From Wenzhouxiangella limi (GTDB lineage: Bacteria; Pseudomonadota; Gammaproteobacteria; Xanthomonadales; Wenzhouxiangellaceae), in assembly GCF_010499265.1 (NCBI RefSeq), contig NZ_JAAGSC010000040.1:248001-312000 (forward strand): a stretch of 64,000 bases of DNA. Direction: 5' to 3'. Each line of letters starts with the position of its first letter. Position 1 is the stretch's first letter. Positions 21,706-40,795 of the stretch are shown here, piece after piece. The notes under the pieces are model-generated. The model searched no databases. It saw only the letters and a list, made by a program, of their open reading frames with translations, and was not told the DNA's origin. The translations under genes were made by a program, and so were the position numbers.

Positions 21706-22943
21706 GCGACGCCGAGGAGGCAGGGGATTCATCAGCGTCGTCGGATTCGTCCGGCTCATCGGGCGCGCCGGATTCATCGCAACGCCCGCCAGCCTCGGAC
21801 TCTGGCGAAGATTCGGGTGACGATTCAGGCAGCGATTCGGCCCGGCCCGAAACCGAAAGCGACGGGCAGGCCACCGCCAGCGACGCTGACCGCCTCAGCC
21901 GCCGCGAGAGCGAAGCCGCTGACAGGCCGCAGCGGCCGCAAAGCCTTAGAGGAGAGCAGGACATTCCCGGCTGGGAAGACGGCCTGCCGCCGCCGCCGGT
22001 GCCCTTCGACGAGATGGATCGCGACCCCGGATCGCTTGCCCACGCCTCGCCGTCGGTGCGCAAGCTCGCGCGCGAGCTCGGCGTTGACTTAAGCCGGGTC
22101 GAAGGCTCCGGGCGCAAGGGGCGGATCACGGCCGAGGACCTCAAGCAGCACGTCAAGTCGAAGATGCGCGGTGACGCTGCGCCGGCCGCGTCCGGTGCCG
22201 GTTTGCCGGATCTGCCCGCCGCGCCATCGGTGGATTTTTCGAAGTTCGGCGCGGTCGAGGAAAAACCGCTGTCGCGCATCCAGAAGATCTCCGGTCCCAC
22301 CCTGCACCGCAACTGGGTCTCGATTCCGCACGTGACCCAGTTCGACGAGGCCGACATCACCGAGATGGAAGCCTTCCGCAAGGACAGTCAGAAAACCGCC
22401 GAGCAGGCCGGCACCAAGATGACGCCGCTGGTGTTTCTGATCAAGGCGGTGGTGGCGGCGCTGAAGCGCTTTCCGCAGGTCAACGCCTCGCTTTCGGCCA
22501 GCGGCGAGAGCCTGATCCACAAGCACTATTTCCACGTCGGCGTCGCCGTGGACACGCCCAATGGCCTGGTCGTGCCGGTCTTGCGCGACTGCGATCAAAA
22601 GGGGCTGCTCGAGCTTGCGCTGGAGTTGACCGACCTGTCGGGCCGGGCCCGCGACGGCAAGCTCAAAAGCGAGGAGATGAAAGGCGGCTGCTTTACCATC
22701 TCCAGCCTCGGCGGCATCGGCGGGACCGCTTTCACGCCCATCATCAACGCCCCCGAGCTGGCCATTCTCGGCGTCTCGCGGGCCGAAACGAAACCGGTCT
22801 GGAACGGCGAGCGCTTCGAGCCCAGACTGAAGCTTCCGCTGTCGCTGTCCTACGATCACCGCGTCATCGACGGCGCCGCCGCCGCCCGCTTCACCCGCTA
22901 CCTGGCCGAGCAGCTCGAGGACCTGCGGCGGTTGCTGCTTTGA
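21471..22943 (+). CDS. aceF: Pyruvate dehydrogenase E2, dihydrolipoamide acetyltransferase
   Basis: E2 transfers acetyl groups from the lipoyl arm to CoA and forms the complex core. The 490 residues hold a single N-terminal lipoyl domain (1-80, lipoyl-Lys in ESDKATMDV), a long flexible linker (about 80-165), a peripheral-subunit-binding domain (about 187-222, SVRKLARELGVDLSRVEGSG) and the catalytic domain ending in YDHRVIDGAAAARF (His and Asp of the active site). The linker is Ser/Asp/Glu-rich rather than the usual Ala/Pro-rich, which is unusual. Only one lipoyl domain is on E2, but a near copy is fused to the downstream E3. Confidence 0.96.
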   Translation: MSNRHDIRIPDIGDFEQVPVIEILVAEGDTVEAEQSLITLESDKATMDVPSPGSGKLVKLSVAEGDQVSEGDVIGVLESDAEEAGDSSASSDSSGSSGAPDSSQRPPASDSGEDSGDDSGSDSARPETESDGQATASDADRLSRRESEAADRPQRPQSLRGEQDIPGWEDGLPPPPVPFDEMDRDPGSLAHASPSVRKLARELGVDLSRVEGSGRKGRITAEDLKQHVKSKMRGDAAPAASGAGLPDLPAAPSVDFSKFGAVEEKPLSRIQKISGPTLHRNWVSIPHVTQFDEADITEMEAFRKDSQKTAEQAGTKMTPLVFLIKAVVAALKRFPQVNASLSASGESLIHKHYFHVGVAVDTPNGLVVPVLRDCDQKGLLELALELTDLSGRARDGKLKSEEMKGGCFTISSLGGIGGTAFTPIINAPELAILGVSRAETKPVWNGERFEPRLKLPLSLSYDHRVIDGAAAARFTRYLAEQLEDLRRLLL

Positions 22944-22968: not shown

Positions 22969-23203
22969 ATGAGTAATCGACAGGAAATCCGCATCCCCGC
23001 TATCGGCGACTTCGAGCAGGTGCCGGTGATCGAAGTCCTGGTTGCCGAGGGCGATGTGGTCGAGGCCGAGCAGTCGCTGATCACGCTGGAGTCGGACAAG
23101 GCGACCATGGATGTGCCGGCGCCGGGATCGGGCAAGCTCGTCGAACTGACCGTTGCCGAGGGCGACAAGGTCTCCGAAGGCGACGTGATCGGGGTGCTGG
23201 AGG
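22969..23203 (+). repeat. Lipoyl-domain direct repeat, copy B (in lpdA)
   Basis: This is the second copy of the repeat at 21471-21705. Identity falls off after about 235 bases, at the start of each linker, so the repeat unit is exactly the lipoyl domain. Confidence 0.9.
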
Positions 23204-24756
23204 CGGGCTCTGAAGATGAGGGAGCAGGGGCCAGGGACCAGCGCTCAGGCGACGAGGTCTCTGAAGACGGGTCGGCTGGCATAGCCGAGGAAGCGCAGAC
23301 CGACCCTGCCGCCGCGCCGGCGAGCGCCGGCCGGAAACCGGACAGCGATTCGTTCGACTTCGACCTGGTTGTACTCGGCTCCGGCCCCGGCGGCTACACC
23401 GCCGCCTTTCGCGCCGCCGATCTGGGCCTGAAGGTGGCCCTGATCGAGCGCTATTCGAGCCTGGGGGGTGTGTGTCTGAACGTCGGCTGTATCCCGTCCA
23501 AGGCCTTGCTGCACGTCGGCCAGGTGATCGACTCGGCTGCCCGCATGGCCGACCACGGCGTACGTTTTGGCGAACCGGACATCGATCTGGATATCCTGCG
23601 CGACTACAAAAATGGCGTGGTCGGCAAGCTGACCAAGGGTCTGGCGGGCATGGCCAGCAAGCGCTCGGTCGAAGTCATCCAGGGGACGGGCTGTTTTGTC
23701 GACCCACACCGCATCGAAGTCGAACACGACGGCGAAGCGCGGACGGTTTCGTTTGCCCGCTGCATCATCGCCGCCGGATCGCGGGTGATCCAGATTCCCG
23801 GCATTCCTGACGACGATGCGCGCGTGATGGATTCGACCGGGGCGCTGGAGCTGCACGACATTCCGGACCGGCTGCTGGTGATCGGCGGCGGCATCATCGG
23901 CCTGGAAATGGCCTGCGTCTACCGCGCCCTGGGCGCCCGCGTCACCGTGGTCGAGTTGCTGGACCAGCTCATGGCCGGGGCCGATGCTGACCTGGTAAGG
24001 CCGCTTCATCAGCACATGAAAAAGCTCGGCGTGCGGTTCCTGCTGGGCACCAGGGTGACCGGCGTGGAAGCCGGCGAGCAGGGCCTGGATGCCCACTTCG
24101 AGGGTCCGCAGGCTCCGGAGCGCGATGAGTTCGACCGCGTGCTGGTTTCGGTCGGACGCCGGCCCAACGGCGACCGCATCGGCGCCGACCGGGCGGGGCT
24201 GGACGTCGACGAGCGCGGCTTCATCGCCGTCGACGGCCAGATGCGGACCCATCTCGAGCATATCTTTGCCATCGGCGACATCGTCGGCCAGCCGATGCTC
24301 GCGCACAAGGCCAGCTACGAGGGCAAGATCGCCGCCGAGGTCGCCGCCGGCCACAAGCGCGCCGCCGACGCGCGCGCCATTCCGTCGGTGGCCTACACCG
24401 ACCCGGAAGTCGCCTGGGTGGGTCTGACCGAAACCCAGGCCAAAAAGGAAGGGCTGGACTACGGCGTCGGCAAGTTCCCCTGGGCAGCGTCGGGTCGCGC
24501 GCTGGGCATGGACCGATCCGAGGGCTTCACCAAGCTGATCTTCGACAAAAAATCCGGCCGCCTGGTCGGGGCCGGCGTGGTCGGCGTGCACGCCGGTGAC
24601 CTGATCGGCGAGCTGACCCTGGCCCTGGAGATGGGCTGCGACGCCGCCGACATCGGTCTGACCATTCATCCGCACCCGACCCTGTCGGAATCGGTGATGA
24701 TGGCGGCCGAAGTGTACGAGGGCACCATTACCGACCTCTACCTGGGCCGCAAGTAG
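22969..24756 (+). CDS. lpdA: Dihydrolipoamide dehydrogenase (E3) with N-terminal lipoyl domain
   Basis: E3 reoxidises dihydrolipoamide using FAD and NAD+. Residues 1-80 are a lipoyl domain almost identical to that of E2, with the lipoyl-lysine motif DKATMDV. A 40-residue acidic linker follows. From about residue 125 the flavoprotein begins: VVLGSGPGGYTAAFRAADLG, the redox disulphide GGVCLNVGCIPSKALL near 165, the NAD-binding GGGIIGLEMA near 307, and the C-terminal HPHPTLSESV with the catalytic His. The 595 residues equal a standard E3 plus the fusion. Lipoyl-E3 fusions are known in some beta- and gammaproteobacteria. AceE, AceF and this protein form one complex. Confidence 0.96.
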   Translation: MSNRQEIRIPAIGDFEQVPVIEVLVAEGDVVEAEQSLITLESDKATMDVPAPGSGKLVELTVAEGDKVSEGDVIGVLEAGSEDEGAGARDQRSGDEVSEDGSAGIAEEAQTDPAAAPASAGRKPDSDSFDFDLVVLGSGPGGYTAAFRAADLGLKVALIERYSSLGGVCLNVGCIPSKALLHVGQVIDSAARMADHGVRFGEPDIDLDILRDYKNGVVGKLTKGLAGMASKRSVEVIQGTGCFVDPHRIEVEHDGEARTVSFARCIIAAGSRVIQIPGIPDDDARVMDSTGALELHDIPDRLLVIGGGIIGLEMACVYRALGARVTVVELLDQLMAGADADLVRPLHQHMKKLGVRFLLGTRVTGVEAGEQGLDAHFEGPQAPERDEFDRVLVSVGRRPNGDRIGADRAGLDVDERGFIAVDGQMRTHLEHIFAIGDIVGQPMLAHKASYEGKIAAEVAAGHKRAADARAIPSVAYTDPEVAWVGLTETQAKKEGLDYGVGKFPWAASGRALGMDRSEGFTKLIFDKKSGRLVGAGVVGVHAGDLIGELTLALEMGCDAADIGLTIHPHPTLSESVMMAAEVYEGTITDLYLGRK

Positions 24757-24862
24757 GTCCCCCCCAAATGGGCCGGGGGCCGGCAAAGAACCACCAGCGT
24801 CATCGCGCCATCGAGAGTGCGGTGCTATTCTTCTTCGGCCCTGAAAAACCGTTGTCGATCCC

Positions 24863-25864
24863 GTGTACTACGCTGCCGCCTGCCAGACCGATTTTCCCGC
24901 CCCGCGCCACCGCGACGAGATCGCCGAACGCGTGCGCCGCATGGCCGAGATCATCGAGCAGACCATCATCGGCTACGAGCCGTTTTTCGACGTTCGCCTG
25001 CTCGTTTTCCCGGAGTTTGCCCACACCGTACCCATTCATGACAACGTCGAACGGTTACTTGAAGATATCGCCGTGGAGCTGCCGAACGAGCATACGGCAG
25101 TGTATGAGCGCCTCGCCCGTCAGTACGGCTGCTACATCCAGACCGGCAGCTTCCTCGAGCGGGATCCGGCCTGGCCGGGACATGTTTTCAACGCTACGCT
25201 GCTGATCGGTCCTGAAGGCATCCTGGCAAAGTACCGCAAGGTCAATACCTGGATTCCCTGGGAAGTGCACACCAGCCCGCACGACCTGCCGGACTATCCC
25301 GACGATCCTTTTCCCGTGGTCGAGACGGAGCTGGGCCGGATGGGCGTGGCGATCTGCTACGACTGGCTGTTCCCCGAGACCATCCGCGAGCTGTCTTTTC
25401 GCGGCGCCGAGGTGCTGATTCGGGTGTCGGCCTACATGGATCCCTGGGGCACGGCCGAACCGATGAACTGGTGGACGCTGGTCAACCGCACGCGGGCGCT
25501 TGAAAATACCGCCTACGTGGTGGCCGCCAACCAGGGCGCGCAGATGCATCACTACCCGCCGTTTTCCTGGCCGGGCGGCTCCATGGTGGTCGACTACGAT
25601 GGTCGCATCCTGGCCCAGGCCGACCCCGGCCCCGGCGAGAAAGTTGTGGTGGCCCCGATCGACCTTGAGCGCCTGCGCGCCGAGCGCGAGCGCCGCCTGG
25701 GACACGATACCCGGGCGCATTATCGGTCTGAAATCCATGCCTACTACAGTCGGTCCTCGCTCGCCCCGGGCGGCGATCGGGCGCCGACCATCGATGGCCT
25801 GAAAGACCGCATCCGGCAGTCCAAGCAGCGCGGTCCATCAACACGAGGAAAAAACAAGCCGTGA
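24863..25864 (+). CDS. Carbon-nitrogen hydrolase (nitrilase superfamily)
   Basis: The 333 residues carry the Glu-Lys-Cys triad of the superfamily: Glu51 in VFPEFAH, Lys126 in KYRKVN and Cys165 in AICYDWLFPE. Such enzymes hydrolyse amides, carbamoyl amines or nitriles; the sequence looks more like an amidase or carbamoylase than a true nitrilase, but the substrate cannot be named. The start is GTG (MYYAAACQTDF), with no clear ribosome site. The last bases overlap the GTG of the following TPR/FG-GAP gene (GTGA), so it is coupled to the accessory cluster. There is no signal peptide, so it is cytoplasmic. The 106 bases upstream contain no gene. Confidence 0.85.
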   Translation: MYYAAACQTDFPAPRHRDEIAERVRRMAEIIEQTIIGYEPFFDVRLLVFPEFAHTVPIHDNVERLLEDIAVELPNEHTAVYERLARQYGCYIQTGSFLERDPAWPGHVFNATLLIGPEGILAKYRKVNTWIPWEVHTSPHDLPDYPDDPFPVVETELGRMGVAICYDWLFPETIRELSFRGAEVLIRVSAYMDPWGTAEPMNWWTLVNRTRALENTAYVVAANQGAQMHHYPPFSWPGGSMVVDYDGRILAQADPGPGEKVVVAPIDLERLRAERERRLGHDTRAHYRSEIHAYYSRSSLAPGGDRAPTIDGLKDRIRQSKQRGPSTRGKNKP

Positions 25865-28800
25865 ATCGAATTGTTTGGGCGCTGTGCGCGCTCGCGCTGA
25901 TCGCAGGCTGCGAAAGCGGCGAACGCGGATCATCGGGCGCGGACTTGACCGCAGAGCAGATCGACCGCAACAACCGCGGCGTGGCCCTGATGGGTCAGTA
26001 CCGCAACGAGGATGCCCGCGAAGTCTTTGCCGAACTGCTCGTCGAGCAGCCCGACTGGACCGATGTCGAGGTCAACCTGGCTATCGCCATTCTCAATCGT
26101 CAGCGCGAAGGCGACGAGCTGGTCGCCCTGGAGATCGTCGAGCGCATTCTGCAGGACCACCCCGACCACGTTCGCGCCCGCTATATCGCCGGCCTGATGC
26201 GGTTCTACATCGGCGATACCCAGCCGGCGCTGGATCATCTGCAGCGGGTGCTTGCGGCCGCGCCCGACGATGCCCACGTCGCCTACTTCACCGCCCAGGC
26301 CTACAGCCAGCTCGGCGATAACGAGGCCGCGCTGGCGCTCTACCAGCGCGCTATCGAACTCGATCCTTACCTGCGCAGTGCCTACTACGGCGCCGCGCTG
26401 GCCCATCGCCAGCTGGGCAACGCCGACGCCGCGCGCGAAATGCTGGGGATCTACCAGCGCTTCGAGAACAACCCGCGCGCCCAGCTGGCCGAGTTCGTCT
26501 ATACCCGAAAGGGCCCGCTGGCCGAAGCGCTGGCCGTGGACCGGCCCGATGCCGAGGAGCGGATCCGCGATCCCGACGGCGGGCTGTTTGCCTCCGCTGT
26601 CGACCTCCTGGCGCTACCCTCCGAACTGGCCGCGCCCAGCCTCACCGTGGCCGACATCAGCGGCTCGGGCGAGCTCGATGTGCTGGTGGCCGGCGGCGCC
26701 GGGCAGGGTAACGTCGTCGTTGGGCAGCGCGACGGCGAGCTGCGCGCTGAGCCCGGCCACCCGTTGGCCGGCATCGACTCGGTGACCGCCGCCCTCTGGG
26801 GCGATATCGACAACGACGGCATCCTCGATGTCCTGCTGTGCCGCGACGGCCCCAATCGCCTGCTCGCCGGCAGCGGCTGGACCGACGCGCCCGCCGCGGC
26901 CGATCTGGCCGATCCCTCGGCGTGCCGCGACGGCGCGGTGCTGGACGCCGACCACGACGGCGATCTGGACCTGTTCGTGGTCAATGCCGACGGCGCCAAC
27001 GAACTGTTCAACAACAACCTGGACGGCAGCTTCCGTCGCCTCAGCCGGGAAAGCGAGGCCGACCTCGGCGGCGGCGCGCGCGCCAGCCGGCAGGTGCTGG
27101 CGGCGGATCTGGACGCCGACCGCGACGCCGACCTGGTGATCCTGCACGAGCAACCGCCGCACCAGGTGCTGCGCAACGACCGCCTGTGGCGCTACGAGTC
27201 TGCGCCCGGCTTTGCCGCGTTCGAGGCCGCGCCCTTGCTGGCCGTCACCGCGGCGGATTTCGCCGCCAGCGGTCAGGTCAGCCTGGTTACCATCGATACC
27301 GTCGGCCAGCTCCAGCACTGGCAGCCCGATGAGGCCGGCGTGTGGCAGGCCCGGACGCTGACCGAGATCGCGCTAGCCCAGCCCGATAGCGTGGCCCTGG
27401 CCGCGGTCGACTTCGACGGCTCCGGGCGGCCCGACCTGCTGGTCCAGCACGCCGGCGGGTTCGAGGTCCTGAATGTAAGCGCCCAGGGCGAAGTCGAACG
27501 CCGCCATGACGAGGCCGTGGAGCTGCTGGCGCTTGCGCCCATCCTGCTGGAGCCCGAGCGCGGCCCCGCCCTGGTCGGCGTGGTGGCCGAAGACGGCGTA
27601 CGCCAGCTGCGGCTGTGGCCGGCCGGCAGCGGCCGGCACGGCTTCGTCGCCATCGCTCCCAGCGGCATGACCGACCGCGGCGAAGGCATGCGATCCAACG
27701 CCTCGGGCATCGGCACCGGGGTGATGCTGCGCACGGGCTCGCGCTGGTCGATCTTCGATACCTTCGATCGTCACAGCGCGCCGGGTCAGAGCCTGCAGCC
27801 GCTGGCCATCGGTCTGGGCGGAGACGACCGCGCCGATTTCGTCAAGCTGTTCTGGTCCGACGGCGTGCTGCAGACCGAAATGGACCTGGCCGCCGGGCAG
27901 GTCCACCGGATCTCCGAACTGCAGCGCCAGCTGGCCAGTTGCCCGGTGCTGTTTGCCTGGAACGGCGAGCGCCATGAGTTCGTCAGCGACCTGCTCGGCG
28001 TGGCCGGGATCGGTTTCCTGCGCGAGCCGGGACGGTATTCCGAGCCGCGGCCGTGGGAGTACTTTCTGTTTCCCGAGGGCAGCATCGCCCCGCGCGAGGG
28101 CCGCTACGAGATCAAGATCGCCGAGCCCATGGAGGAGATCGCCTACATCGACTCAGCCCAGCTGCACGTGGTCGATCTGCCGGCGGGCTGGCAGGTCACC
28201 CTCGACGAGCGCATGTTCACCGGCGGCGGGCCGGAGCCGACCGGCGCCAGGGTGTTTTACCGCGACGAGCGCGTGATTGAGCCGGTGCGTGCCATCGACG
28301 GGCGCGGCCGGGTCGTCACCGCCGAGGTGCTGGCGGCCGATTTCGTGGCCGCACCGCCGGGCGCGCCGGACGCGCGCTTCCTCGGTCGGCTGGCCGAAGA
28401 TCACGTGTTGACCCTGGAGTTCGACCGGGTGATCAACCCGCCCGATGCCCGGCCGCGGTTGCTGGCTTCCGGCTGGGTCGAGTATCCTTACTCGCAGACC
28501 GTTTTCGCTGCCTGGCAGGCCGGCGCCGCCTATCGTCCGCCCAGCCTGGAGGCGTTCGCTGACGGCCGCTGGCAGCCGGTGTTCGAGCATTTCGGCTATC
28601 CGGCCGGCATGCCGCGCGAGATGTCGCTGGCGCTGGACGCGCTGCCGGCCGGCACCACCGCCTTGCGCATTCGCGGCAACTGGGAGGTCTACTGGGACCG
28701 GCTGGCGGTGGTCCACACCGAGGAGCCGGATGCCGTGGAGGTTCACGCGCTGGAGCTGGCCCAGGCGCGCCTGGCGCGAACCGGCTTTGCTCGCCGGGAC

Positions 28801-29166
28801 ACCGGCGACCAGCGCCTGCCGTACTACGACTACAGCGATCGTTCGCCGTTCTGGGACACCAAGTACCCGGTCGGCTTCTACACCGATTTCGGCCCGGTCG
28901 AGGAACTGGTGGGCGCGACCAACAACGCGTTTGCCGTGTTCGGCCCCGGCGAGGAGCTGCACCTGGAGTTCACCGCGCCGCCGCCGCCGTCAGGCTGGCA
29001 TCGGCAGGTGGTGCTGGAAGTTCGCGGCTACGCCAAGGACATGGATATGTATACCGACACCGGCGAGACCGTCGGGCCGCTGCCGGTCACCGCCGGGGTG
29101 GACGATGAGGGTCAGCGCGAGGCGCTCCACCGGCGGTTCCTGAATCGCTTCCAGGGCGGGCGCTGA
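25861..29166 (+). CDS. Lipoprotein with TPR repeats and FG-GAP-like propeller
   Basis: This 1,101-residue protein starts with a lipoprotein signal (MNRIVWALCALALIAGC, acylated Cys17). TPR-like repeats fill about residues 35-205 (AYSQLGDNEAALALYQRAIELDP). FG-GAP/VCBS-type repeats follow from about 250 to 620, with Asp-rich calcium-type loops such as DIDNDGILDVLL, DADHDGDLDLFVVN and DLDADRDADLVIL. The last 450 residues begin with SCPVLFAWNGERHEFVSDLLG, a block I associate with large TPR/ASPIC proteins, and end in beta-rich sequence without a known catalytic motif. It is probably anchored in the outer membrane, facing the periplasm or the outside. Its stop overlaps the cytochrome start by one base. 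Biochemical role unknown. Confidence 0.82.
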   Translation: MNRIVWALCALALIAGCESGERGSSGADLTAEQIDRNNRGVALMGQYRNEDAREVFAELLVEQPDWTDVEVNLAIAILNRQREGDELVALEIVERILQDHPDHVRARYIAGLMRFYIGDTQPALDHLQRVLAAAPDDAHVAYFTAQAYSQLGDNEAALALYQRAIELDPYLRSAYYGAALAHRQLGNADAAREMLGIYQRFENNPRAQLAEFVYTRKGPLAEALAVDRPDAEERIRDPDGGLFASAVDLLALPSELAAPSLTVADISGSGELDVLVAGGAGQGNVVVGQRDGELRAEPGHPLAGIDSVTAALWGDIDNDGILDVLLCRDGPNRLLAGSGWTDAPAAADLADPSACRDGAVLDADHDGDLDLFVVNADGANELFNNNLDGSFRRLSRESEADLGGGARASRQVLAADLDADRDADLVILHEQPPHQVLRNDRLWRYESAPGFAAFEAAPLLAVTAADFAASGQVSLVTIDTVGQLQHWQPDEAGVWQARTLTEIALAQPDSVALAAVDFDGSGRPDLLVQHAGGFEVLNVSAQGEVERRHDEAVELLALAPILLEPERGPALVGVVAEDGVRQLRLWPAGSGRHGFVAIAPSGMTDRGEGMRSNASGIGTGVMLRTGSRWSIFDTFDRHSAPGQSLQPLAIGLGGDDRADFVKLFWSDGVLQTEMDLAAGQVHRISELQRQLASCPVLFAWNGERHEFVSDLLGVAGIGFLREPGRYSEPRPWEYFLFPEGSIAPREGRYEIKIAEPMEEIAYIDSAQLHVVDLPAGWQVTLDERMFTGGGPEPTGARVFYRDERVIEPVRAIDGRGRVVTAEVLAADFVAAPPGAPDARFLGRLAEDHVLTLEFDRVINPPDARPRLLASGWVEYPYSQTVFAAWQAGAAYRPPSLEAFADGRWQPVFEHFGYPAGMPREMSLALDALPAGTTALRIRGNWEVYWDRLAVVHTEEPDAVEVHALELAQARLARTGFARRDTGDQRLPYYDYSDRSPFWDTKYPVGFYTDFGPVEELVGATNNAFAVFGPGEELHLEFTAPPPPSGWHRQVVLEVRGYAKDMDMYTDTGETVGPLPVTAGVDDEGQREALHRRFLNRFQGGR

Positions 29167-31946
29167 TGGTCGAGGGCACCGGCGCAGGGCGCGTGCGGCG
29201 AGCCGTGGGCCCGCGCCTGCGGCGCCTGCTGGTGGCCGTGCTGGTGCTGTTCGTGCTGCTGCTGGTCAACTCGGTCTATCTGGGCGGCGTGACCGCGCTG
29301 GAGTGGCTGAGCGACCGGACCTATCAGGACTACACCTACCAGTGGATGTTCCTGTTCCACCTGGCCGGCGGGCTGCTGTTGGTCGTGCCGGCGCTGGTGT
29401 TCATCGCCTTGCACATGCGCAATACCTGGCGGCGCTCGAACCGCCCGGCGGTCTATGCCGGACTCGGTCTGTTCGGGGCCGTTGTTGTCCTGCTGCTCAG
29501 CGGCCTGCTGCTGGTGCGCTTCGATTTCTTCCAGGTGCGCGACCCGCTGATTCGCCAGATCGCCTACTGGGCCCACGTCACCGTGCCGCTGGCGGTGATC
29601 TGGCTGTTCGTGCTGCATCGACTGAGCGGCCCGCGGCTGCGCTGGCGCGGCGGCCTGGCCGTGGCCGGCGTCGGTTTCGCCTTCGCCGCCGGACTGGTGG
29701 TGCTGCAGATCCAGGATCCGCGCCAGTGGGGCACGCCCGGCGCCGACGGCGCTGCCGATTTCAGCCCCGCACTGACCCGGACCGCCTCGGGCAATCACAT
29801 CGCCCCCGAAGCGCTGATGATGGATTCCTACTGCGCCAGCTGCCATACGGACGTGCACGCGCAGTGGTCTCACTCGGTCCATCGCTTCGCTTCGTTCAAC
29901 AATCCGGTCTATCGCTTTGCCGTCAACAACACCCGCAAGGCGACCCTGGCGCGCGACGGCAACGTCGAGGCGGCGCGCTTTTGCGCGTCCTGTCACGACC
30001 TGGTGCCGCTGCTCAGCGGTCGCTTCGACGATCCCGACTTCGACGACGTCAACGACCCGACCGCGCACGCCGGCATCACCTGTACCTCCTGCCACGCCAT
30101 CACCCACGTCAACAGCGTGCGCGGCACCGGCGACTTCACCATCGAAGAGCCGATTCACTACCCGTTTGCCTACAGCGACAACGATTTCTTGCAGTGGGTC
30201 AACGCCCAGCTGATCAAGGCCCGGCCGGATTTCCACAACCGCACCTTTCTCAAACCGCTGCACCAAAGCGCCGAGTTCTGCTCGACCTGCCACAAGCTGC
30301 ACCTGCCGGTGGAGTTGACCGACTACCGCTGGCTGCGCGGCCAGAATCACTACGACTCCTTTTTGCTCAGCGGGGTCTCCGGCCACGGCGTGGCCAGCTT
30401 CTACTATCCCGACCACGCCGAGGCCAACTGCAACGGCTGCCACATGCCGCAACAGCCCTCCGACGACTTCGGTGCACGGGTGCGCCCGGGCGCCCAGATC
30501 TATACCGTGAGCAACCACCTGTTTCCCGCCGCCAACACCGCCATCCCCTACCTGCTGGATCTGCCGCAGTCGGTCATCGGCCAGCACCAGAACATGCTCG
30601 AAGACGCGGTGCGCGTCGACCTGGTGGCCCTGCGTCGCGATGGCGAGATTGACGGTGAGCTGATCGGTCCGCTGCGCCCGGACGTCCCTGCGCTGGAGCC
30701 GGGCGCGAGCTATCTGCTGCAGGTGGTTCTGCGCAACCTCAAGACCGGCCACCATTTCACCCAGGGCACGGCCGATTCCAACGAGGTCTGGGTGGAGGTC
30801 GAAGTGACTCACCAGGAACGCGTCATTGCCCGCAGCGGTGGGCTGACGCCGGATGAACGCGCGGTCGATCCCTGGTCGCATTTCGTCAATACCTGGATGC
30901 TTGACCGAGAGGGCCGGCGCATCGACCGGCGCAACGCCGAGGACATCTTCGTGCCGCTCTACGACCACCAGCTGCCGCCCGGTGCGGCCGACCTGGTCCA
31001 TTACCGGCTCGATGTGCCCGACGATGTGGAGGGCGAGCTCGCGGTGACGGTGCGCCTGAACTACCGCAAGTTCGACACCGTGCTCATGCGCCAGGTCGAG
31101 GGCGAGGCGTTCACCGCCAACACTCTGCCGATCACGCGCATGGCCGAGGATCGGGTGGTGTTCCCGATCGGTCATACGGCTCGTCCGCGCCGGGTCGAAG
31201 CACCGGCGGTGCCGGCCTGGGAGCGCTGGAACGATTACGGCATCGGCGCCCTGCGCAAGCCCCAGAATCGCCAGCTGCGCCAGGCTGAGGAGATTTTTGC
31301 CCGGGTCGAGGCGCTCGGCGTCGCCGACGGCGCGCTGAACCTGGCCCGCGTTTACCTGGCCGAAGGCCGCCTGGCCGAAGCAGCCGCGGCGCTGGAGCGC
31401 GCGGCCGGCCACGAACAGCCGTCGCCGCCCTGGTCGCTGGCCTGGTTCAGCGGTCAGCTGCTGTTCCAGGAAGGCCGCTACGAGGGCGCGATCCGGGCCT
31501 ATCAGGCGCTGGCGGAAACGGCCTTTCCCGAGGCCCGGCGGCGCGGTTTCGACTTCGCGCGCGATTACCGGCTGCTCAACCAGCTGGGGCTGGCCTGGTT
31601 CGAGTCGGCCGGTGATGATGTCCAGGCGCTGGCCGAAGCGCGGCGCTGGTTCCAAGCCGCGCTTCTCCAGGATCCCGAAAACGCCACCGCCCACTACAAC
31701 CTGGCCCAGCTGTATCGCCGGCTCGGCGACCCGCAAAACGCTGTCCGCCATGCGGCCCTGCACGAGCGCTATCGCGTCGACGACAACGCGCGCGATCGGG
31801 CCGTGGCCGCGGCCCGGCGCGCCCACCCGGCGGCCGATCATGCCGCCGACCCGGTCGTAATCTACGACCTGCAGCGACCCGGCAGCCTGGACTATGTCGC
31901 CTCGCGCCCGTACCGGGCCGCCGACCACGAGTTGGTCAGCCGATGA
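29166..31946 (+). CDS. Membrane-anchored pentahaem c-type cytochrome with C-terminal TPR
   Basis: The 926 residues open with five hydrophobic helices (about 21-40, 60-82, 95-117, 131-150, 163-180). Positive residues at 10-20, 84-92 and 151-161 put those loops in the cytoplasm and the rest in the periplasm. His65, His83, His137 and His151 lie in or at the ends of helices 2 and 4 and could bind b-type haem. The periplasmic part has five CxxCH sites at Cys223, Cys273, Cys306, Cys372 and Cys422 for covalent haem. A beta-rich region follows, then TPR-like helices near 690-890. This architecture suggests electron transfer from the quinone pool to a periplasmic or outer-membrane partner, but no known enzyme family is recognised. 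The start ATG overlaps the previous stop and the stop overlaps the next ATG. Confidence 0.85.
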   Translation: MVEGTGAGRVRRAVGPRLRRLLVAVLVLFVLLLVNSVYLGGVTALEWLSDRTYQDYTYQWMFLFHLAGGLLLVVPALVFIALHMRNTWRRSNRPAVYAGLGLFGAVVVLLLSGLLLVRFDFFQVRDPLIRQIAYWAHVTVPLAVIWLFVLHRLSGPRLRWRGGLAVAGVGFAFAAGLVVLQIQDPRQWGTPGADGAADFSPALTRTASGNHIAPEALMMDSYCASCHTDVHAQWSHSVHRFASFNNPVYRFAVNNTRKATLARDGNVEAARFCASCHDLVPLLSGRFDDPDFDDVNDPTAHAGITCTSCHAITHVNSVRGTGDFTIEEPIHYPFAYSDNDFLQWVNAQLIKARPDFHNRTFLKPLHQSAEFCSTCHKLHLPVELTDYRWLRGQNHYDSFLLSGVSGHGVASFYYPDHAEANCNGCHMPQQPSDDFGARVRPGAQIYTVSNHLFPAANTAIPYLLDLPQSVIGQHQNMLEDAVRVDLVALRRDGEIDGELIGPLRPDVPALEPGASYLLQVVLRNLKTGHHFTQGTADSNEVWVEVEVTHQERVIARSGGLTPDERAVDPWSHFVNTWMLDREGRRIDRRNAEDIFVPLYDHQLPPGAADLVHYRLDVPDDVEGELAVTVRLNYRKFDTVLMRQVEGEAFTANTLPITRMAEDRVVFPIGHTARPRRVEAPAVPAWERWNDYGIGALRKPQNRQLRQAEEIFARVEALGVADGALNLARVYLAEGRLAEAAAALERAAGHEQPSPPWSLAWFSGQLLFQEGRYEGAIRAYQALAETAFPEARRRGFDFARDYRLLNQLGLAWFESAGDDVQALAEARRWFQAALLQDPENATAHYNLAQLYRRLGDPQNAVRHAALHERYRVDDNARDRAVAAARRAHPAADHAADPVVIYDLQRPGSLDYVASRPYRAADHELVSR

Positions 31947-33775
31947 CGAAAGCCTCGGTTACTGGCGCCGATCGCATCACCCGCGCTTTCAGGCGCTCGC
32001 TGTGGGTGCTGGCCGGGCTTGGCGTGCTCGTGACCGGGGCGCTGGTGGTCCGGCATCTTTTGCAGCCGGCTCCGCCGCCGCCGGTCGAGCAGGCGCAGGT
32101 CGATCTTGCCAGCCTGATGGCGCGGCCCGAAGTCCCCGACCCGCCGCGCGGGCGGTTTGTCGATATCACCGAGGCAGCCGGCATCGATTTCGTCCACGCC
32201 AACGGCGCCTTCGGCGAGCGCCTGTTGCCGGAGACCATGGGCGGTGGCGTGGCGTTTTTGGACTACAACCGGGACGGCCACCAGGATCTTCTGTTCGTCG
32301 ACTCCGGGGCCTGGCCCTTCGCTCCGGACGCAGCAATCGCTGGCCCCACCCTGCGCCTGTACGCCAATGACGGCCAGGGTCGGTTCCGGGAGGTCACCGA
32401 AGCCGCCGGCCTGGCCGGGCATTCCTTCTACGGGATGGGCCTGGCGGTGGCCGATGTCACCGGCAACGGCTACCCCGACCTGTTCGTGACCGCGGTCGGT
32501 CCGAACCGGTTTTTCGTCAACCGCGGCGGACGTTTCGAAGAGGCCACCGAGCGCGCCGGCGTGGCCGGCGAGGCCGACCGCTGGAGCACCAGCGCGGCGT
32601 TTTTCGACGCCGACGGCGACGGCGACCTGGATCTGTTCGTCGCCAACTACGTCGAGTGGTCGCGCCAGATCGACATCGAGGTGGACTACCGTCTGACCGG
32701 CATCGGCCGGGCCTACGGGCCGCCGACCAATTTCCAGGGCGTTCAGTCCTATCTGTACTTCAACAACGGTGACGGCAGCTTTCGCGATGTTAGCGCCGAA
32801 GCCGGGATTCACGTCAATCATCCGGCTACTGGTGAGCCGGAAGGCAAGGCGCTGGCGGTCGTTCCGGTCGATTTGAACGACGATGGCCGGCTCGATCTGG
32901 TCGTGGCCAATGACACGGTGCGCAATTTTGCTTTCGTCAACCAGGGCGACGGTCTGTTTGTCGAGCAGGCTGCCGAGCTGGGCCTGGGCTTCGACCGCAA
33001 CGGTCTGGCCACCGGCGCGATGGGCATCGACGCGGTCCGGTTCGAGAGCGAAGGCAACCTGGCCATTGCCATCGGCAATTTTGCCAACGAGATGAGTTCG
33101 TTCTACGTTGGCCGGGTCGGGCGGGGCGGCTTTGCCGATCAGTCCATCGGCGCCGGCATCGGTGCCGCCACCCGGCTGGCGCTGACCTTCGGCGTGTTTT
33201 TCTTCGACTACGATCTCGATGGCCGGCTCGATTACCTGCAGGCCAACGGCCACGTCGAAAACGACATCAACCGGGTCCAGTCCAGCCAGCGGTACCGCCA
33301 GCCAGGGCAGCTGTTCTGGAACTGCGGTGCCGTCTGTCCGCAGACGCTGCAGCCGCTGGATCGCGACCGAATCGGCGACCTTGCCCGGCCGATGGTCGGG
33401 CGCGGTGCGGCCTACGCCGACATCGACGGCAACGGCCGGCTGGACGTGATCCTGACCCAGGTCGCAGGCCCGCCGCTACTGTTGCGCAACAACACCGGTG
33501 CCGAGCATCACTGGCTGCGCGTGCGTCTGGAAGGGCAGCCGCCGAATACCGATGCCATCGGTGCCCGGATTCGCCTGGAGGCCGACGATCTGGTCCAGAC
33601 CCGCAGGGTCATGCCCAGCCGCAGTTATCTTTCGCAGGTGGAGTTGCCGGTGACCTTTGGTCTGGGCCCGCGCGATCGCGTCGACCGCCTGGTCGTGACC
33701 TGGCCGGACGGCGAAGAGCAGGTGATCGACGATCCGGCGGTCGATCGGCTGCACGTGATCGCGCGTGAGCCTTGA
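31943..33775 (+). CDS. CRTAC1 / ASPIC-UnbV family FG-GAP propeller protein, membrane-anchored
   Basis: The 610-residue protein overlaps the cytochrome stop by four bases (ATGA). One hydrophobic segment (about residues 20-40) without a clear cleavage site suggests a signal anchor. Repeated FG-GAP loops follow, for example DYNRDGHQDLLFVD, DVTGNGYPDLFVT, DADGDGDLDLFVANY, DLNDDGRLDLVVAND and DIDGNGRLDVILT, each likely to bind calcium. The C-terminus has the ASPIC/UnbV domain (HHWLRVRLEG near 518, LVVTWPDGEEQVI near 590). Family members are extracytoplasmic and functionally poorly known. Coupling to a multihaem cytochrome makes a role in the same envelope complex likely. Confidence 0.88.
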   Translation: MTKASVTGADRITRAFRRSLWVLAGLGVLVTGALVVRHLLQPAPPPPVEQAQVDLASLMARPEVPDPPRGRFVDITEAAGIDFVHANGAFGERLLPETMGGGVAFLDYNRDGHQDLLFVDSGAWPFAPDAAIAGPTLRLYANDGQGRFREVTEAAGLAGHSFYGMGLAVADVTGNGYPDLFVTAVGPNRFFVNRGGRFEEATERAGVAGEADRWSTSAAFFDADGDGDLDLFVANYVEWSRQIDIEVDYRLTGIGRAYGPPTNFQGVQSYLYFNNGDGSFRDVSAEAGIHVNHPATGEPEGKALAVVPVDLNDDGRLDLVVANDTVRNFAFVNQGDGLFVEQAAELGLGFDRNGLATGAMGIDAVRFESEGNLAIAIGNFANEMSSFYVGRVGRGGFADQSIGAGIGAATRLALTFGVFFFDYDLDGRLDYLQANGHVENDINRVQSSQRYRQPGQLFWNCGAVCPQTLQPLDRDRIGDLARPMVGRGAAYADIDGNGRLDVILTQVAGPPLLLRNNTGAEHHWLRVRLEGQPPNTDAIGARIRLEADDLVQTRRVMPSRSYLSQVELPVTFGLGPRDRVDRLVVTWPDGEEQVIDDPAVDRLHVIAREP

Positions 33776-33782
33776 GGGACCC

Positions 33783-33878
33783 ATGATCAAATTGCATCGG
33801 CGCCGGGCCAGTGGCATCATGGCCGGTCGCCTGCCCCTGATGCAGGTCAGTCCTCCGACGAAGCAGCCTCCAGCATGA
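33783..33878 (+). CDS. Possible 31-residue leader or coupling ORF
   Basis: An ATG at 33783 preceded by GAGGG at close spacing opens a 31-codon frame (MIKLHRRRASGIMAGRLPLM, then 11 residues rich in Pro and Gln). Its TGA overlaps the ATG of the next CRTAC1 gene in the ATGA arrangement used throughout this cluster. It begins seven bases after the previous stop. It may be a coupling leader rather than a functional peptide, or chance in a 99-base gap. Confidence 0.3.
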   Translation: MIKLHRRRASGIMAGRLPLMQVSPPTKQPPA

Positions 33879-35632
33879 AAACCTGTTCCGGCATGGAAGA
33901 AACCCGTAAGTCCCCTACGCGCCGGCGTCTCGGCTGGCTAGCGCTCGGCGCGCTGCTGTCCGCGGCCGCATCGGTGGTCAGCGCCGACAGCGACTGGTTT
34001 GCCGACGTCACCGCCGAGGCCGGCGTCGACTTTCGCTACGACAATGGCATGAGCGGCCAGTACTATTTTCCCGAGATCATGGGCGGCGGCGCAGCCCTGC
34101 TTGACTACAACGGTGACGGACTGCTCGACCTGTACCTCGTCCAGGGCGGTACGCTGGGTCCGGACATCGACCCGTCCGAACGGCCGCCAGGCGATCGGCT
34201 TTACCGCAACGATTCGTTCCAGGACGATAACGGTGACTGGAAGATCCGCTTTACCGACGTCACCGAACAGTCCGGCATCGAGGCCCGCGGCTACGGCATG
34301 GGCGTGGCCGTTGGCGATATCGACGGCGACGGTCTGCAGGATCTCTACGTACTCAACTTCGGCCCCAACCAGCTTTGGCGCAACAACGGCGACGGCACGT
34401 TTACCGACATCACCGAGCGGGCCGGCGTCGGCGATCCCCGCTGGAGCGTCAGCGCCAGTTTTGCCGACCTCAACGGCGACGGCCTGCTCGATCTGTTCGT
34501 GGCCAACTACGTGGACTTCAGCTTCCAGGGCCACCGCGTCTGCCGCTCTGCAACCACCAGCCAGCAGGACTACTGTTCGCCGTCGGCTTATGAGGGGGTG
34601 CGCGATACGCTGTTCATCAACCAGGGCGAAGGCCGCTTCGCCGACCGGACCGAGGCGGCGGGCATCGCCGGCACGACCCGCCATGGGCTGGGTGTGGTGG
34701 CCGCCGACTTCAACGGTAGCGGTCGCATCGACATCTTCGTGGCCAACGACGGCACGGCCAATTCGCTCTGGGTCAACCAGGGCGACGGCACGTTCATCGA
34801 TGACGGTTTCATGGCGGGTACCGCGGTCAACGCCGACGGCAGCATGGAGGCCGGCATGGGCGTGGACGCAGGTGACTACGATCGTTCCGGCGCCGAAGAC
34901 CTGTTCATCACCCACATGCGCCGCGAAACAAATACGTTGTATCGCAACGACGGCCAGGGCTGGTTTACCGACGTCACCGCCACCAGCGGTCTGGGTGCGC
35001 CCAGCCTGCCGGCGACGGGTTTCGGCACCGCCTGGCTGGATATCGACAATGACGGCTGGCTGGATCTGTTCGCGGTCAACGGGGCGGTGGTTATCGAGGA
35101 AGACCTGGTCGCTGCCGGCGACCCGTTTCCTTACCATCAGCCCGACCAGCTCTTCCTGAACCGCGGCGACGGGCGCTTCGTCGAGGCCACCGATCGCGCC
35201 GGCGCCGCGCTGGAGGTCTCGCACGTCGGCCGCGGTCTGGCGGTGGGCGATATCGACAACAACGGCCGGACCGACCTGGTGATCGTCAATATCAACGGTC
35301 CGGCGCGGGTGCTGATTAATCGAACGCCAGAAGAACACCACTGGCTGGGCCTGGCCCTGAACGACGAGCGCGGGCGGGTCCTGACCCAGGCCGTCGCCTG
35401 GCTGCGCGAGGACAACGGCCCGGATCGGCGTCGCCGCGCGCGGGCCGACGGTTCGTACGCCTCGGCCAACGATCCCCGGGTGATCTTCGGCCTGGCCGGT
35501 AATCCGGCCTCGCGTACCGTGGAGGTGCATTGGCCGGACGGGCAGCGCGAATGGTTTTCCGATCTGGCCGTCGATCAATATCACGCACTAAGCCGCGGCA
35601 GCGGTCGAGGCCAGCCGGAGGGCGACCTATGA
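33875..35632 (+). CDS. CRTAC1 / ASPIC-UnbV family FG-GAP propeller protein, secreted
   Basis: This is a 585-residue paralogue of the preceding propeller protein. A basic, extended signal peptide ends near residue 37 (ASVVSADS), so this copy is probably released to the periplasm or exported. Seven Asp-rich repeats are easy to see, such as DYNGDGLLDLYLVQ, DIDGDGLQDLYVLN, DLNGDGLLDLFVANY, DFNGSGRIDIFVAND and DIDNDGWLDLFAVN. The ASPIC/UnbV domain begins at HHWLGLALND near residue 488 and includes VEVHWPDGQREWF. An alternative ATG lies six codons downstream. GGAGGG just before the end of the frame is the ribosome site of the next gene, which overlaps the stop. Confidence 0.88.
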   Translation: MKTCSGMEETRKSPTRRRLGWLALGALLSAAASVVSADSDWFADVTAEAGVDFRYDNGMSGQYYFPEIMGGGAALLDYNGDGLLDLYLVQGGTLGPDIDPSERPPGDRLYRNDSFQDDNGDWKIRFTDVTEQSGIEARGYGMGVAVGDIDGDGLQDLYVLNFGPNQLWRNNGDGTFTDITERAGVGDPRWSVSASFADLNGDGLLDLFVANYVDFSFQGHRVCRSATTSQQDYCSPSAYEGVRDTLFINQGEGRFADRTEAAGIAGTTRHGLGVVAADFNGSGRIDIFVANDGTANSLWVNQGDGTFIDDGFMAGTAVNADGSMEAGMGVDAGDYDRSGAEDLFITHMRRETNTLYRNDGQGWFTDVTATSGLGAPSLPATGFGTAWLDIDNDGWLDLFAVNGAVVIEEDLVAAGDPFPYHQPDQLFLNRGDGRFVEATDRAGAALEVSHVGRGLAVGDIDNNGRTDLVIVNINGPARVLINRTPEEHHWLGLALNDERGRVLTQAVAWLREDNGPDRRRRARADGSYASANDPRVIFGLAGNPASRTVEVHWPDGQREWFSDLAVDQYHALSRGSGRGQPEGDL

Positions 35633-37221
35633 GATCGCCGGCGATTCTCCTGATGCTGCTCGCAGTCGTGCTTTTACAGCCTCTGAAAGCCGAAGTGCGC
35701 GACGTCGACCCCGTGGATCGAAGCGATACACCCGAAACGGTGCTGGAGGCCATCGATGCGGCCCGAGCCGCGATTCCGGCGCCTGCCGAAGCGGCGCCGG
35801 AAGTGCGTTCCGATGCCTACGGCCGGCTCGGTGACGTCCTGTTTGCGCACGGCTTTTCGGCCCAGGCCGAGCAGGCCTATCGCAACGCGCGTGAGCTGAA
35901 TCCGTCGGTCGCCGATTGGCATTACCTGCTCGGTATGCTGGCGATCGATCGCGGCGAACTCAATCAGGCGGTAGCGCATCTTGACCAGGCGATCGAGCGC
36001 AACCCGTTCGATCCGGTCGCCTTCATCCGCCGCGGCCAGACCCGGCTGGATCAGGGTCGGCCGGAGGCGGCCGCTCCGGATTTCGAGCGCGCTCTGGCCT
36101 TGGCGCCTGATGCGCCCGCCGCACTGGCCGGGCAGGGCCGGGTGCTGCTGTCCCGGGGCGACCACGCTGCGGCCGCGGAACTGTTTGAACGGGTGCTCGA
36201 GATCAGCCCTGAAGCGACCCGCCTGCATCAACCGCTGGCGATGGCCTATCGAGCGCTGGGTGATGTGGAGCGCGCACGTGAACAGATCGAACGGATTGGT
36301 TCGGGCAGCGAGCCGATCGCCGACCCGCTGCTCGAGCGTGTTCAGAGACAGTCGCGCTCTCCCCAGTTCTATCTCGAAGTCGGACTGCAGCGCGCCGAAG
36401 CCGGTGATCTGGACGAGGCGCGGCGGCTGCTGGCGGTCGCCGTGCAGCTCGCGCCGGACGATCCGGTGATGCTCGAAAACTACGGCCAGGTCGTCGCCCG
36501 CCAGGGCGACCTGGAGGAAGCGGCGGCCGCGTTCGAGCGCTGGATCGGCCTGGAGGTCGACGCGGCAAGAGCGCATTTTCTGCTCGGTCAGGTCCGCGAA
36601 CTGCAGGGTGCGTTGAAGGCAGCAGAGCAGGCGTATCAAAGCGCGCTGGCGCTGGCTGGCGATCATGTCGAGGCGGCCGAAGCCCTGGCCTTTCTTGAGC
36701 TGGAGGCCGGCGAATTTGCTCAAGCCGAACGCCGTTTCAGTCGGCTGCTCGGCGACGTCGAGCAGGCCGAAAGCGCACGCTTCGGTTTCTGGGCGGCGCT
36801 GGCCATGCTGGCTGCCGGAGACTGCGGCCGGGGCGAGAATGCCCTCGAAGAATTGAGCGACCGGTTTCCCTCCGATGGCGATGTGCTGGCGGCGCTGGCC
36901 CGTGTCCGAGCCACCTGCGGGGCGGTCTCGGCCGAGGGACTGGAGGAGGCGCTGCGGTGGGCCGAGGCCGTGTACCAGACCGCGCCGACGACGGACAATT
37001 CGGCGACCCTGGCCATGGTGTTCGCTGCGCTCGGACAGTTCGACGATGCGGTGGATCTGCAGGCTCAGGCGATGTTCGAGGCGCTCAAGAGCGGGCAGCT
37101 TGAGGCGCGACCCGATTTGCGCGCGGACATGGAGCGCTACCAGGCCGGCCGGCCGGCGGGGGTGCCGTTTGCGCCCGGCTACCCGGGTCTGCCGAATCCG
37201 GTTGAAGCTGAAAACGGCTAA
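35629..37221 (+). CDS. Periplasmic TPR protein
   Basis: The ATG at 35629 overlaps the previous stop (ATGA), follows a good GGAGGG site and opens directly into a signal peptide (MRSPAILLMLLAVVLLQPLKA); an in-frame start 99 bases earlier would bury that signal. The 530-residue mature protein is made almost entirely of TPR-like helical pairs, e.g. AHGFSAQAEQAYRNARELNP, GRPEAAAPDFERALALAPDA and GDLDEARRLLAVAVQLAPDD. It ends the five-gene propeller/cytochrome series and could be a scaffold for it. The following 24 bases separate it from the convergent transporter gene. Confidence 0.85.
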   Translation: MRSPAILLMLLAVVLLQPLKAEVRDVDPVDRSDTPETVLEAIDAARAAIPAPAEAAPEVRSDAYGRLGDVLFAHGFSAQAEQAYRNARELNPSVADWHYLLGMLAIDRGELNQAVAHLDQAIERNPFDPVAFIRRGQTRLDQGRPEAAAPDFERALALAPDAPAALAGQGRVLLSRGDHAAAAELFERVLEISPEATRLHQPLAMAYRALGDVERAREQIERIGSGSEPIADPLLERVQRQSRSPQFYLEVGLQRAEAGDLDEARRLLAVAVQLAPDDPVMLENYGQVVARQGDLEEAAAAFERWIGLEVDAARAHFLLGQVRELQGALKAAEQAYQSALALAGDHVEAAEALAFLELEAGEFAQAERRFSRLLGDVEQAESARFGFWAALAMLAAGDCGRGENALEELSDRFPSDGDVLAALARVRATCGAVSAEGLEEALRWAEAVYQTAPTTDNSATLAMVFAALGQFDDAVDLQAQAMFEALKSGQLEARPDLRADMERYQAGRPAGVPFAPGYPGLPNPVEAENG

Positions 37222-37239
37222 GCGCCGACTGCACGGCGC
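37222..37239. terminator. Short hairpin between convergent genes
   Basis: GCGCCG and CGGCGC form a perfect six-base stem around a six-base loop, lying just after the TPR gene stop and just beyond the transporter stop. There is no good T-run on either side, so it is at best a weak or factor-assisted terminator. Confidence 0.3.
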
Positions 37240-37245
37240 GACGAA

Positions 37246-38538
37246 TCAAAAGATGCGCCAGCCCAGCCAGATCAGACAAAAGACCACCAGGAAGCCAAAT
37301 CCCGTCCAGGCCAGGCGCATCATGCCGGGGCCAGGACGATGTTGTTCGGGCATGAAGTCGGCGGTGATCACGCGAATGTTCAGCCACGCCAGCAAGGGAG
37401 CGGCCAGGAACGAAACCGTGGTTGCGAAGTCGATCAGCACAGTGAAGCGCTGGCCGAAGAACAGGATGATCATCAAGGCGCCGATGGTGACGATGAGCAG
37501 GGCGGTGATGTAGCGTCCGCGGTGCAGGTCCAGCTGTCGACCCGTCCGATCTACGCGGGCTGCACCGCTGATCTCGATGACCGCCCGGAGGACGCGCGGA
37601 TAGGCGTCGGTGACCGCAAGCGTGGTCGAAAACATGGCCGTCAGCGCGGCGATCGCGATGAGCGAACGTGACCATTCCCCGAGGCTGGCGGCGTACAGAT
37701 CGACCAGCTGTCCCGAGAACGCCACCGCCTGTGGCGGAAAGCGTTCGCCGCTGCCGTGCATGATCAACGCACCGAGCAACAGGAAGATCACCGCTGTTGC
37801 GGTGGCGCCGAGATAGCCAATCCGGCAGTCGAAAAGCGCGTGTCGAACGCTGGGGGCAACCCCGGTCTGCCGGGCCCGCTCCAGCGTCCATAGCGAGTGC
37901 CACGCGGCCACGTCCAGCGGGATGGGCATCCAGCCGAGCAGGGCCAGGACGAAGGCGACGCCGGCGGCGGTCCAGACCTGATCAAAGCCGCTGAACGGGT
38001 TGAGGCTGACATGCTCTGCCGGCGTGCCCGATGCGAGTAAAACTGCGGCCGTGGTCGAAATGGCCAGCGCGGCAATGATGATTTTCATCAGTCCATCGAG
38101 CGCGGCAAAGCGGCCAAGCGCCAGCACCGTGATGCAGGCGATCAGCACGCCGAAAGACAGCTGGGTGATGGTGGCATCAATGCCAAGCACCAGCCCGGCC
38201 AGTCCGGCCGTCACCAGGGTGACGCTGGCCTGGATGATCAGCATGGTCGCCACCGTGATCAGGGCGAAAAGCCCCAGCGCCCATTTGCCCAAACGCTGGT
38301 AGCCGCGAATCAGCGATTCACCTGTCGCGGCCGCGTAGCGCGGTCCGAACTCGATGAAGGGGTACTTCAGAACACAGGCCAGGATGACCAGCGCGAGCAG
38401 GCTGAGCCCGTACTCCGCGCCAGCCCGCGTGGCCTGCACGAGGTGGGAAACGCCGATGGCGGCACCGGCCATCAGCAAGCCTGGTCCGAGCGCCGCTGTC
38501 AGTGCTTTTGTGCGCTGCCTATCCAACATTTCTGTCAT
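37246..38538 (-). CDS. NRAMP-related metal-ion transporter
   Basis: The 430-residue protein has about eleven hydrophobic helices and the NRAMP-family layout, starting GPGLLMAGAAIGVSHLVQAT and continuing GAEYGLSLLALVILACVLKYPFIEFGPRYAAATGESLI. The canonical first-helix DPGN metal site is replaced by a GVSHLVQ sequence, and the sixth-helix MPH motif by MPIPLDVA, so ion selectivity probably differs from classical manganese/iron NRAMPs. Divergent homologues of this kind are widespread in proteobacteria. It is transcribed away from the lipase gene from a shared 113-base region; no clear ribosome site precedes its ATG. Confidence 0.82.
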   Translation of the reverse strand: MTEMLDRQRTKALTAALGPGLLMAGAAIGVSHLVQATRAGAEYGLSLLALVILACVLKYPFIEFGPRYAAATGESLIRGYQRLGKWALGLFALITVATMLIIQASVTLVTAGLAGLVLGIDATITQLSFGVLIACITVLALGRFAALDGLMKIIIAALAISTTAAVLLASGTPAEHVSLNPFSGFDQVWTAAGVAFVLALLGWMPIPLDVAAWHSLWTLERARQTGVAPSVRHALFDCRIGYLGATATAVIFLLLGALIMHGSGERFPPQAVAFSGQLVDLYAASLGEWSRSLIAIAALTAMFSTTLAVTDAYPRVLRAVIEISGAARVDRTGRQLDLHRGRYITALLIVTIGALMIILFFGQRFTVLIDFATTVSFLAAPLLAWLNIRVITADFMPEQHRPGPGMMRLAWTGFGFLVVFCLIWLGWRIF

Positions 38539-40781: not shown

Positions 40782-40795
40782 CAGGGAGACGAATG

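Follow-up and report, generated by a model that had tools for sequence, protein, structure and literature searches.

A membrane cytochrome (C) and a CRTAC1/ASPIC propeller (D), encoded by overlapping genes in the window, a 64,000-nucleotide stretch of the Wenzhouxiangella limi genome, point to an electron-transfer system in the cell envelope that is conserved across several phyla. The preferred reading, given a probability of roughly 55%, is that C would be a quinone-linked wire of seven haems with D as its membrane-anchored propeller partner, and that the flanking genes (A and B, E and F) would supply accessory modules. The six genes fall into three modules, AB, CD and EF, of which CD is the constant core.

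The cluster comprised six genes on the + strand at 24863-37221, lettered A to F. Gene A (24863-25864, GTG start) encodes a nitrilase-superfamily amidase of 333 aa identified with the CN_hydrolase profile. Gene B (25861-29166) showed TPR, FG-GAP propeller and ASPIC domains with Pfam profiles and was judged a lipoprotein by eye, while gene C (29166-31946) was recognised from profiles and alignment as a membrane cytochrome with membrane, pentahaem c and TPR domains. Genes D (31943-33775) and E (33875-35632) matched the FG-GAP and UnbV_ASPIC profiles of CRTAC1/ASPIC propellers, E having a signal-like N-terminus by eye, and gene F (35629-37221) encodes a TPR-profile protein with an N-terminal hydrophobic segment. 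All of the protein families proposed in the earlier note (a hydrolase, a TPR/FG-GAP protein, a cytochrome with five CxxCH sites, two propellers and a TPR protein) were matched. Five overlapping or nearly abutting genes had also been described there. The junctions agreed, with a GTGA overlap at 25861 (A-B), TGATG with base 29166 common to both genes (B-C) and ATGA at 31943 (C-D) and 35629 (E-F), but the genes number six and D and E are uncoupled by a gap of 99 bases (33776-33874), the sole non-overlapping junction. The idea of a single translational unit was not borne out, as in the two relatives scanned D and E are separated by an oppositely oriented gene for a UDP-GlcNAc 2-epimerase (L034, 4759-5928; L036, 12650-13897), which does not lie between D and E in the window.

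A division of the genes by separate promoters and terminators had been named as a possible objection to one system. No sigma-70-like site was found in 24600-37500 (shuffles give 1.2). Terminator-like sites numbered 18 in the same interval, where shuffles gave 7.1 (sd 3.0). One of them (24801-24824) stands directly before A, the remainder lie inside or after genes, and neither the D-E gap nor any other junction has one; taken together, this is weak evidence either way. The host genome (3.35 Mb) gave three ASPIC matches and a single C match, all inside the cluster. Upstream are genes with family matches to pyruvate-dehydrogenase E1 (18695-21436) and lipoamide dehydrogenase (22969-24756), with an E2-like gene (by eye) at 21471-22943. 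On the 3' side, a lipase-N-terminal-domain protein and then a DUF1302 protein are encoded at 38652-42688.

Protein C showed five hydrophobic segments, followed by five CxxCH motifs (223, 273, 306, 372 and 422) and then TPR repeats, corresponding to a membrane domain (1 to about 185), a pentahaem c domain (about 205-670) and a TPR domain (about 700-900). The alignment of C had 98 rows, one of which (L054) is a fragment without membrane helices 1-4, and at least four genomes are present twice. Exactly five CxxCH motifs occurred in 98/98 rows, membrane residues H65, H83, H137 and H151 were kept in 97/97 rows covering them and H239, H357, H366, H451 and H529 of the c domain in 98/98, an invariance that is partly selected because 79 of the rows came from the best 80 of at least 568 relatives, in a scan with two peptide patterns containing H239 and the second CxxCH. 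The membrane domain is predicted to be b-type, its four histidines serving two b haems and the c domain offering one extra histidine for each of the five c haems, so that C probably has seven haems, the two b haems being predicted from these residues. Of four distant relatives in this alignment, L052, L053 and P0001 have Tyr in place of H366 and P0003 has Ile, and the corresponding haem may therefore differ there. L052 and L053, two of the 20 order regions described below, encode shorter C-like proteins (706 and 792 aa) without the TPR columns checked.

The profile searches with 28 C members gave no convincing b-cytochrome family match for the membrane domain. PF01292 matched one member (2.9e-4) and DUF4405 two (best E 0.022), and unrelated families matched as often. 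The comparison of this domain with the PDB produced no useful match, with one chain at E 1.8. Cytochrome_C554 (PF13435) was passed narrowly by C with 22.2 bits against a cut-off of 20.8, and two distant relatives scored 36.2 and 31.9. Six plasmid records matched C, none of them covering 80% of it. Since c-type cytochromes mature in the periplasm, the five predicted helices would put the N-terminus of C inside, with H65 and H137 close to the periplasmic surface of the membrane and H83 and H151 close to the cytoplasmic one, which would give a haem pair across the membrane. The link to the quinone pool suggested by the earlier note is plausible to this extent, since the four invariant histidines sit where they could ligate two b haems.

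One profile scan of genome contigs with an 18-row C alignment returned at least 568 relatives, of which the best 80 were kept. The record titles of these best 80, mostly MAGs, named Planctomycetota, Acidobacteriota, Verrucomicrobiota and Gammaproteobacteria together with one Latescibacterota record and one Deltaproteobacteria record (placed under Myxococcota), giving six phyla by record label. Two records titled Akkermansia muciniphila (L075 and L101) resemble environmental MAGs and their names may be wrong. A FastTree of 85 C rows required one label change for Verrucomicrobiota, one for Pseudomonadota, two for Acidobacteriota and four for Planctomycetota, and this largely coherent grouping of phylum labels suggests an old and mostly vertical inheritance. 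The nearest rows to C of the window were a Gammaproteobacterium MAG and Wenzhouxiangella records.

Gene D was called downstream of C, at 200 bits or more, on the same strand and within 1 kb, in 62/69 eligible loci (at least 1.5 kb after C) from the best 80 of at least 568 relatives. Among the exceptions, D lies 2.3 kb downstream of C in L081, the genomes of L068, L100, L101, L114 and L129 have D-class matches elsewhere that score 537 bits or more, and the best D-type score in the genome of L103 was only 290 bits and was not counted as D-class. The earlier note had made its case depend on whether homologues of the cytochrome lie near ASPIC/UnbV genes in other genomes, and they do; adjacency of C and D across phyla indicates more than chance. 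A possible D start overlaps the C stop in 40/64 pairs, 27 of them by 4 bases, which is an upper view because the D start nearest to a 4-base overlap was chosen and true starts may differ. The distances of C and D were correlated (r 0.862 over 57 pairs), as shared descent alone could explain. In the sample from the window's order, a CRTAC1 gene was next after C in 20/20 regions (20 of 30 C loci taken), with A-B-C-D in order in 14 of the 20. Other neighbours of C in other phyla mostly look unrelated by eye, and in Neorhodopirellula (L098) C and D overlap as a gene pair with no A or B nearby. In both Acidobacteriota loci scanned, a PBP transpeptidase gene overlaps the C start by 4 bases (L118, 7917-9947; L133, 8133-9947).

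Across 151 genomes of the order, C was found in 28, A in 24, B in 27, D in 28 and E in 28, and the overlap with the 28 C genomes was 24/24 for A, 26/27 for B and 27/28 for D and for E. The Fisher p values with C were 4.4e-24 (A), 8.8e-26 (B) and 1.5e-27 (D and E), all of them overstated because much of the co-occurrence reflects linkage and shared descent. C genomes without A were G038, G045, G083 and G118 (4/28); B was missing from G038 and G045, D from G118 and E from G137. The sole non-C genome with B, D and E was G052, in which D is near the contig start, so that C may be lost to assembly. Together with the C-D adjacency, the co-occurrence in the order supports the proposed envelope unit of a cytochrome with ASPIC propellers. 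In 369 genomes of the class (thresholds E 1e-60 for A and E 1e-40 for C), A was present in six and C in 15, with A inside the C set in 6/6. Besides the window genome, the five A-positive genomes carry A and C on different contigs, so the co-occurrence is not all linkage; without the window genome the Fisher p was 3.7e-8, with some contigs short and two of the five genomes from the same genus.

Three Phycisphaerales loci (L085, L089 and L092) also have A-B-C-D in a row, and AB and EF join CD in Gammaproteobacteria and in some Planctomycetota loci, namely L074, L085, L089 (no called F) and L092. In 11 A regions taken outside the A-B-C-D row or from other phyla, A was beside B in four and near a B-like gene in three more. 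One fixed six-gene unit was rejected because AB and EF also occur apart from CD. The ASPIC domain (PF07593) was present in 54/151 genomes of the order, 26 of them without C, and only close D-like and E-like matches track C; C-D as the servant of all ASPIC proteins was rejected on this count.

Proteins D and E exceeded the UnbV_ASPIC cut-off of 23.4 with 74.7 and 45.5 bits, respectively, and also had FG-GAP repeats. An N-terminal hydrophobic segment was present in 57/58 D rows, and a cysteine pair in E (C223 and C234) reached 95% conservation or more across 23 rows. Genes like E are often multi-copy. The 20 regions around E copies had an F-labelled TPR gene adjoining E in 17, a label that may be helped by generic TPR similarity; two regions end at a contig edge, and L153 was the sole one with no F-labelled gene beside E. 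On two Rhodobacterales plasmids with different surroundings, a CRTAC1 gene and the gene of a CCP_MauG di-haem peroxidase are convergently oriented (L167, 3794-6738; L168, 5317-8227).

Protein A matched CN_hydrolase with 131.5 bits (E 4.3e-38), and its residues E51, K126, E134 and C165, which we take to be the catalytic residues of the nitrilase superfamily, each reached 95% conservation or more across 30 rows. The domain and the Glu-Lys-Cys triad place A in this superfamily. Formamidase structures align with A, but its score for the formamidase equivalog was 107.3 bits against a cut-off of 406, and for the aliphatic amidase equivalog 81.9 bits against 427. A has no hydrophobic segment and is predicted to be cytoplasmic. 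Three regions with A away from B had ChaN-like lipoprotein, AMP ligase, Usp and DUF218 as Pfam neighbours, which gave no hint of a substrate for A, and the nitrogenous substrate proposed in the earlier note gained no support. In six loci from one family of the order (L045-L050), one gene 5' of A is common to all, and in the two scanned (L045 and L046) it bears a TonB C-terminal domain. Protein B carries a lipobox-like LIAGC (by eye), and the third ASPIC domain, in B, scored 21.4 bits by hmmscan, below the cut-off of 23.4, and 26.8 bits, above it, in the whole-genome search. The C-terminal region of B (about 690-1101) had no Pfam match.

According to the preferred reading, C would have a cytoplasmic N-terminus and would carry two stacked b haems in its first four helices. 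Their predicted ligand pairs are H65-H137 towards the periplasm and H83-H151 towards the cytoplasm, and they would trade electrons with the quinone pool. Helix five would continue into a wire of five c haems in the periplasm, each with a possible second-ligand histidine, and the TPR tail may dock partners. D would be a propeller tethered to the inner membrane as the fixed partner of the haem domain, presumably made by overlapping translation in many lineages. The lipoprotein B, the secreted propeller E and the TPR protein F would be accessory partners within modules AB and EF. The flow would most likely run from quinol to the periplasmic partner.

The reverse direction, in which periplasmic oxidations involving CRTAC1 propellers feed the quinone pool through the five c haems, with C-D as the collector and E-F pairs as substrate-specific inputs, is a possible reading, although an unlikely one. 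It agrees with the copy numbers, since C-positive genomes of the order have one or two C matches whereas G008 has at least eight E-query matches (D included). Near E-F pairs there were also a TonB receptor (L138 scanned; L139 and L141 by eye), a sulfatase-TPR gene (L136), DUF1501 and DUF1800 genes (L147) and a DUF1800 gene (L145), and a Phaeobacter plasmid has a CRTAC1 gene in the midst of genes for xylose uptake and for a MauG-type peroxidase. However, no site for a redox cofactor was recognised when the conserved residues of the propellers were inspected, and the neighbours of E-F vary from copy to copy. It is also conceivable, if doubtful, that only C-D is a functional unit, with A, B, E and F co-resident because their hosts live alike or because the genes were transferred as a block. 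In Planctomycetota and Verrucomicrobiota, most C-D loci have no strong A or B nearby (some flanks are short), A was found in just 10/40 C-positive genomes of other phyla and was missing in 30/40, and the window's genus is all-or-none, with 5/15 genomes carrying A, B, C, D and E together and the other 10 carrying none of them. This account sits poorly with the presence of C in every A genome of the order (24/24) and of the class (6/6, five with A on another contig), and with the A-B-C-D order in the three Phycisphaerales loci.

MauG carries out a redox modification of its own substrate, and C and D might likewise install or repair such a modification in CRTAC1 proteins. This was considered improbable, as each of the five c haems has a candidate second histidine, leaving no open catalytic haem evident, and 26/54 ASPIC-bearing genomes of the order are without C. 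The observations in its favour were a CCP_MauG gene beside CRTAC1 in 2/4 plasmid regions around D hits, one of which was picked for its named peroxidase, and the CRTAC1 genes beside hydrazine-synthase-like haem genes described in PMC12758564. Extracellular electron transfer to a surface-bound or mineral acceptor was rated more improbable still. The architecture of C resembles CbcL of Geobacter, and similarity was detected to the ExtKL model (27/28 C members, best 2.9e-8) and the DmsE-family decahaem model (23/28, best 5.1e-8), in both cases weak. Nevertheless, the extracellular acceptor of the earlier note found no support in the annotated neighbourhoods, where no outer-membrane cytochrome-porin or other conduit gene was recognised, and the hosts among the best 80 of at least 568 relatives include planctomycetes known as aerobic heterotrophs.

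CRTAC1/ASPIC proteins are a large and abundant family of secreted propellers to which, to our knowledge, no function has been assigned, and C-D, if correctly read, would give them a concrete biochemical partner. The cytochrome named here, probably seven-haem and quinone-linked, occurs in records bearing six phylum labels, and no earlier description of a C-D system was found in the openly licensed literature searched (CC0, CC BY and CC BY-SA). On a Granulicella plasmid, CRTAC1 genes flank a divergent pentahaem-TPR homologue that lacks the membrane domain, and the same plasmid encodes a small cytochrome c. CRTAC1 genes stand beside other c-haem genes there, beside CCP_MauG and beside hydrazine-synthase-like genes, a putative pattern. 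As a speculative and rather doubtful extension, CRTAC1/ASPIC propellers might be a general partner class of periplasmic c-haem redox proteins, with C-D as their hub, ancient and linked to the quinone pool, in Planctomycetota, Acidobacteriota, Verrucomicrobiota and part of the Gammaproteobacteria; the E-F pairs would be interchangeable spokes that pass electrons to or from this hub for different substrates. The ideas on C-D are testable in cultured planctomycetes such as Neorhodopirellula.

Comparison with known systems showed several partial likenesses. The NapC/NrfH/CymA type has one membrane helix whereas C has five segments; no cluster protein matched PF03264 (NapC-type) at E 0.01, and an NrfH model matched 11/28 C members weakly. 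The first haem region of C aligned with the cytochrome c554/pentahaem c552 group (PDB 5ze8, E 1.4e-5), but over only about 100 positions, and the 435-residue chain of 5ze8 has neither a membrane domain nor TPR repeats fused to it. In PMC12758564, CRTAC1 propellers are encoded beside hydrazine-synthase-like c-haem genes, which are homologues of HZS alpha and of the CCP/MauG-like HZS beta-gamma, with c554 domains in clade I, and do not belong to the C family. A plasmid of Shinella sp. HZN7 (L166, 4206-9677) has Imelysin, DUF4405, multihaem c and FTR1 genes in a row with nos genes adjacent, possibly a cytochrome-linked iron uptake unit. Its split pair has the gene order b then c. The c part aligned with C over 418 columns (hhalign 99.85%) and the b part weakly over 93 columns (54.6%), and the helix histidine spacings of 18 and 14 are the same as in C by eye. 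The Shinella pair differs in being two genes without TPR, in an iron-permease context and with no CRTAC1 in the 13 kb seen; the DUF4405 gene preceding the c gene is in line with a b-then-c origin of C.

The nearest working analogy for C appears to be CbcL of Geobacter sulfurreducens, which, like MtoC/MtrH homologues, combines two b haems in a transmembrane domain with a multihaem c domain in the periplasm, all in one polypeptide of the inner membrane (PMC9129911, PMC6295460). C would share this b and c fusion, its b haems being a prediction from histidine positions. CbcL has six helices and nine c haems with the c domain first, whereas C begins with the membrane domain, has five predicted helices and five c haems, and in addition possesses a TPR tail and a partner propeller. 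With helices, haems and domain order all different, C may work like CbcL and was not filed as one.
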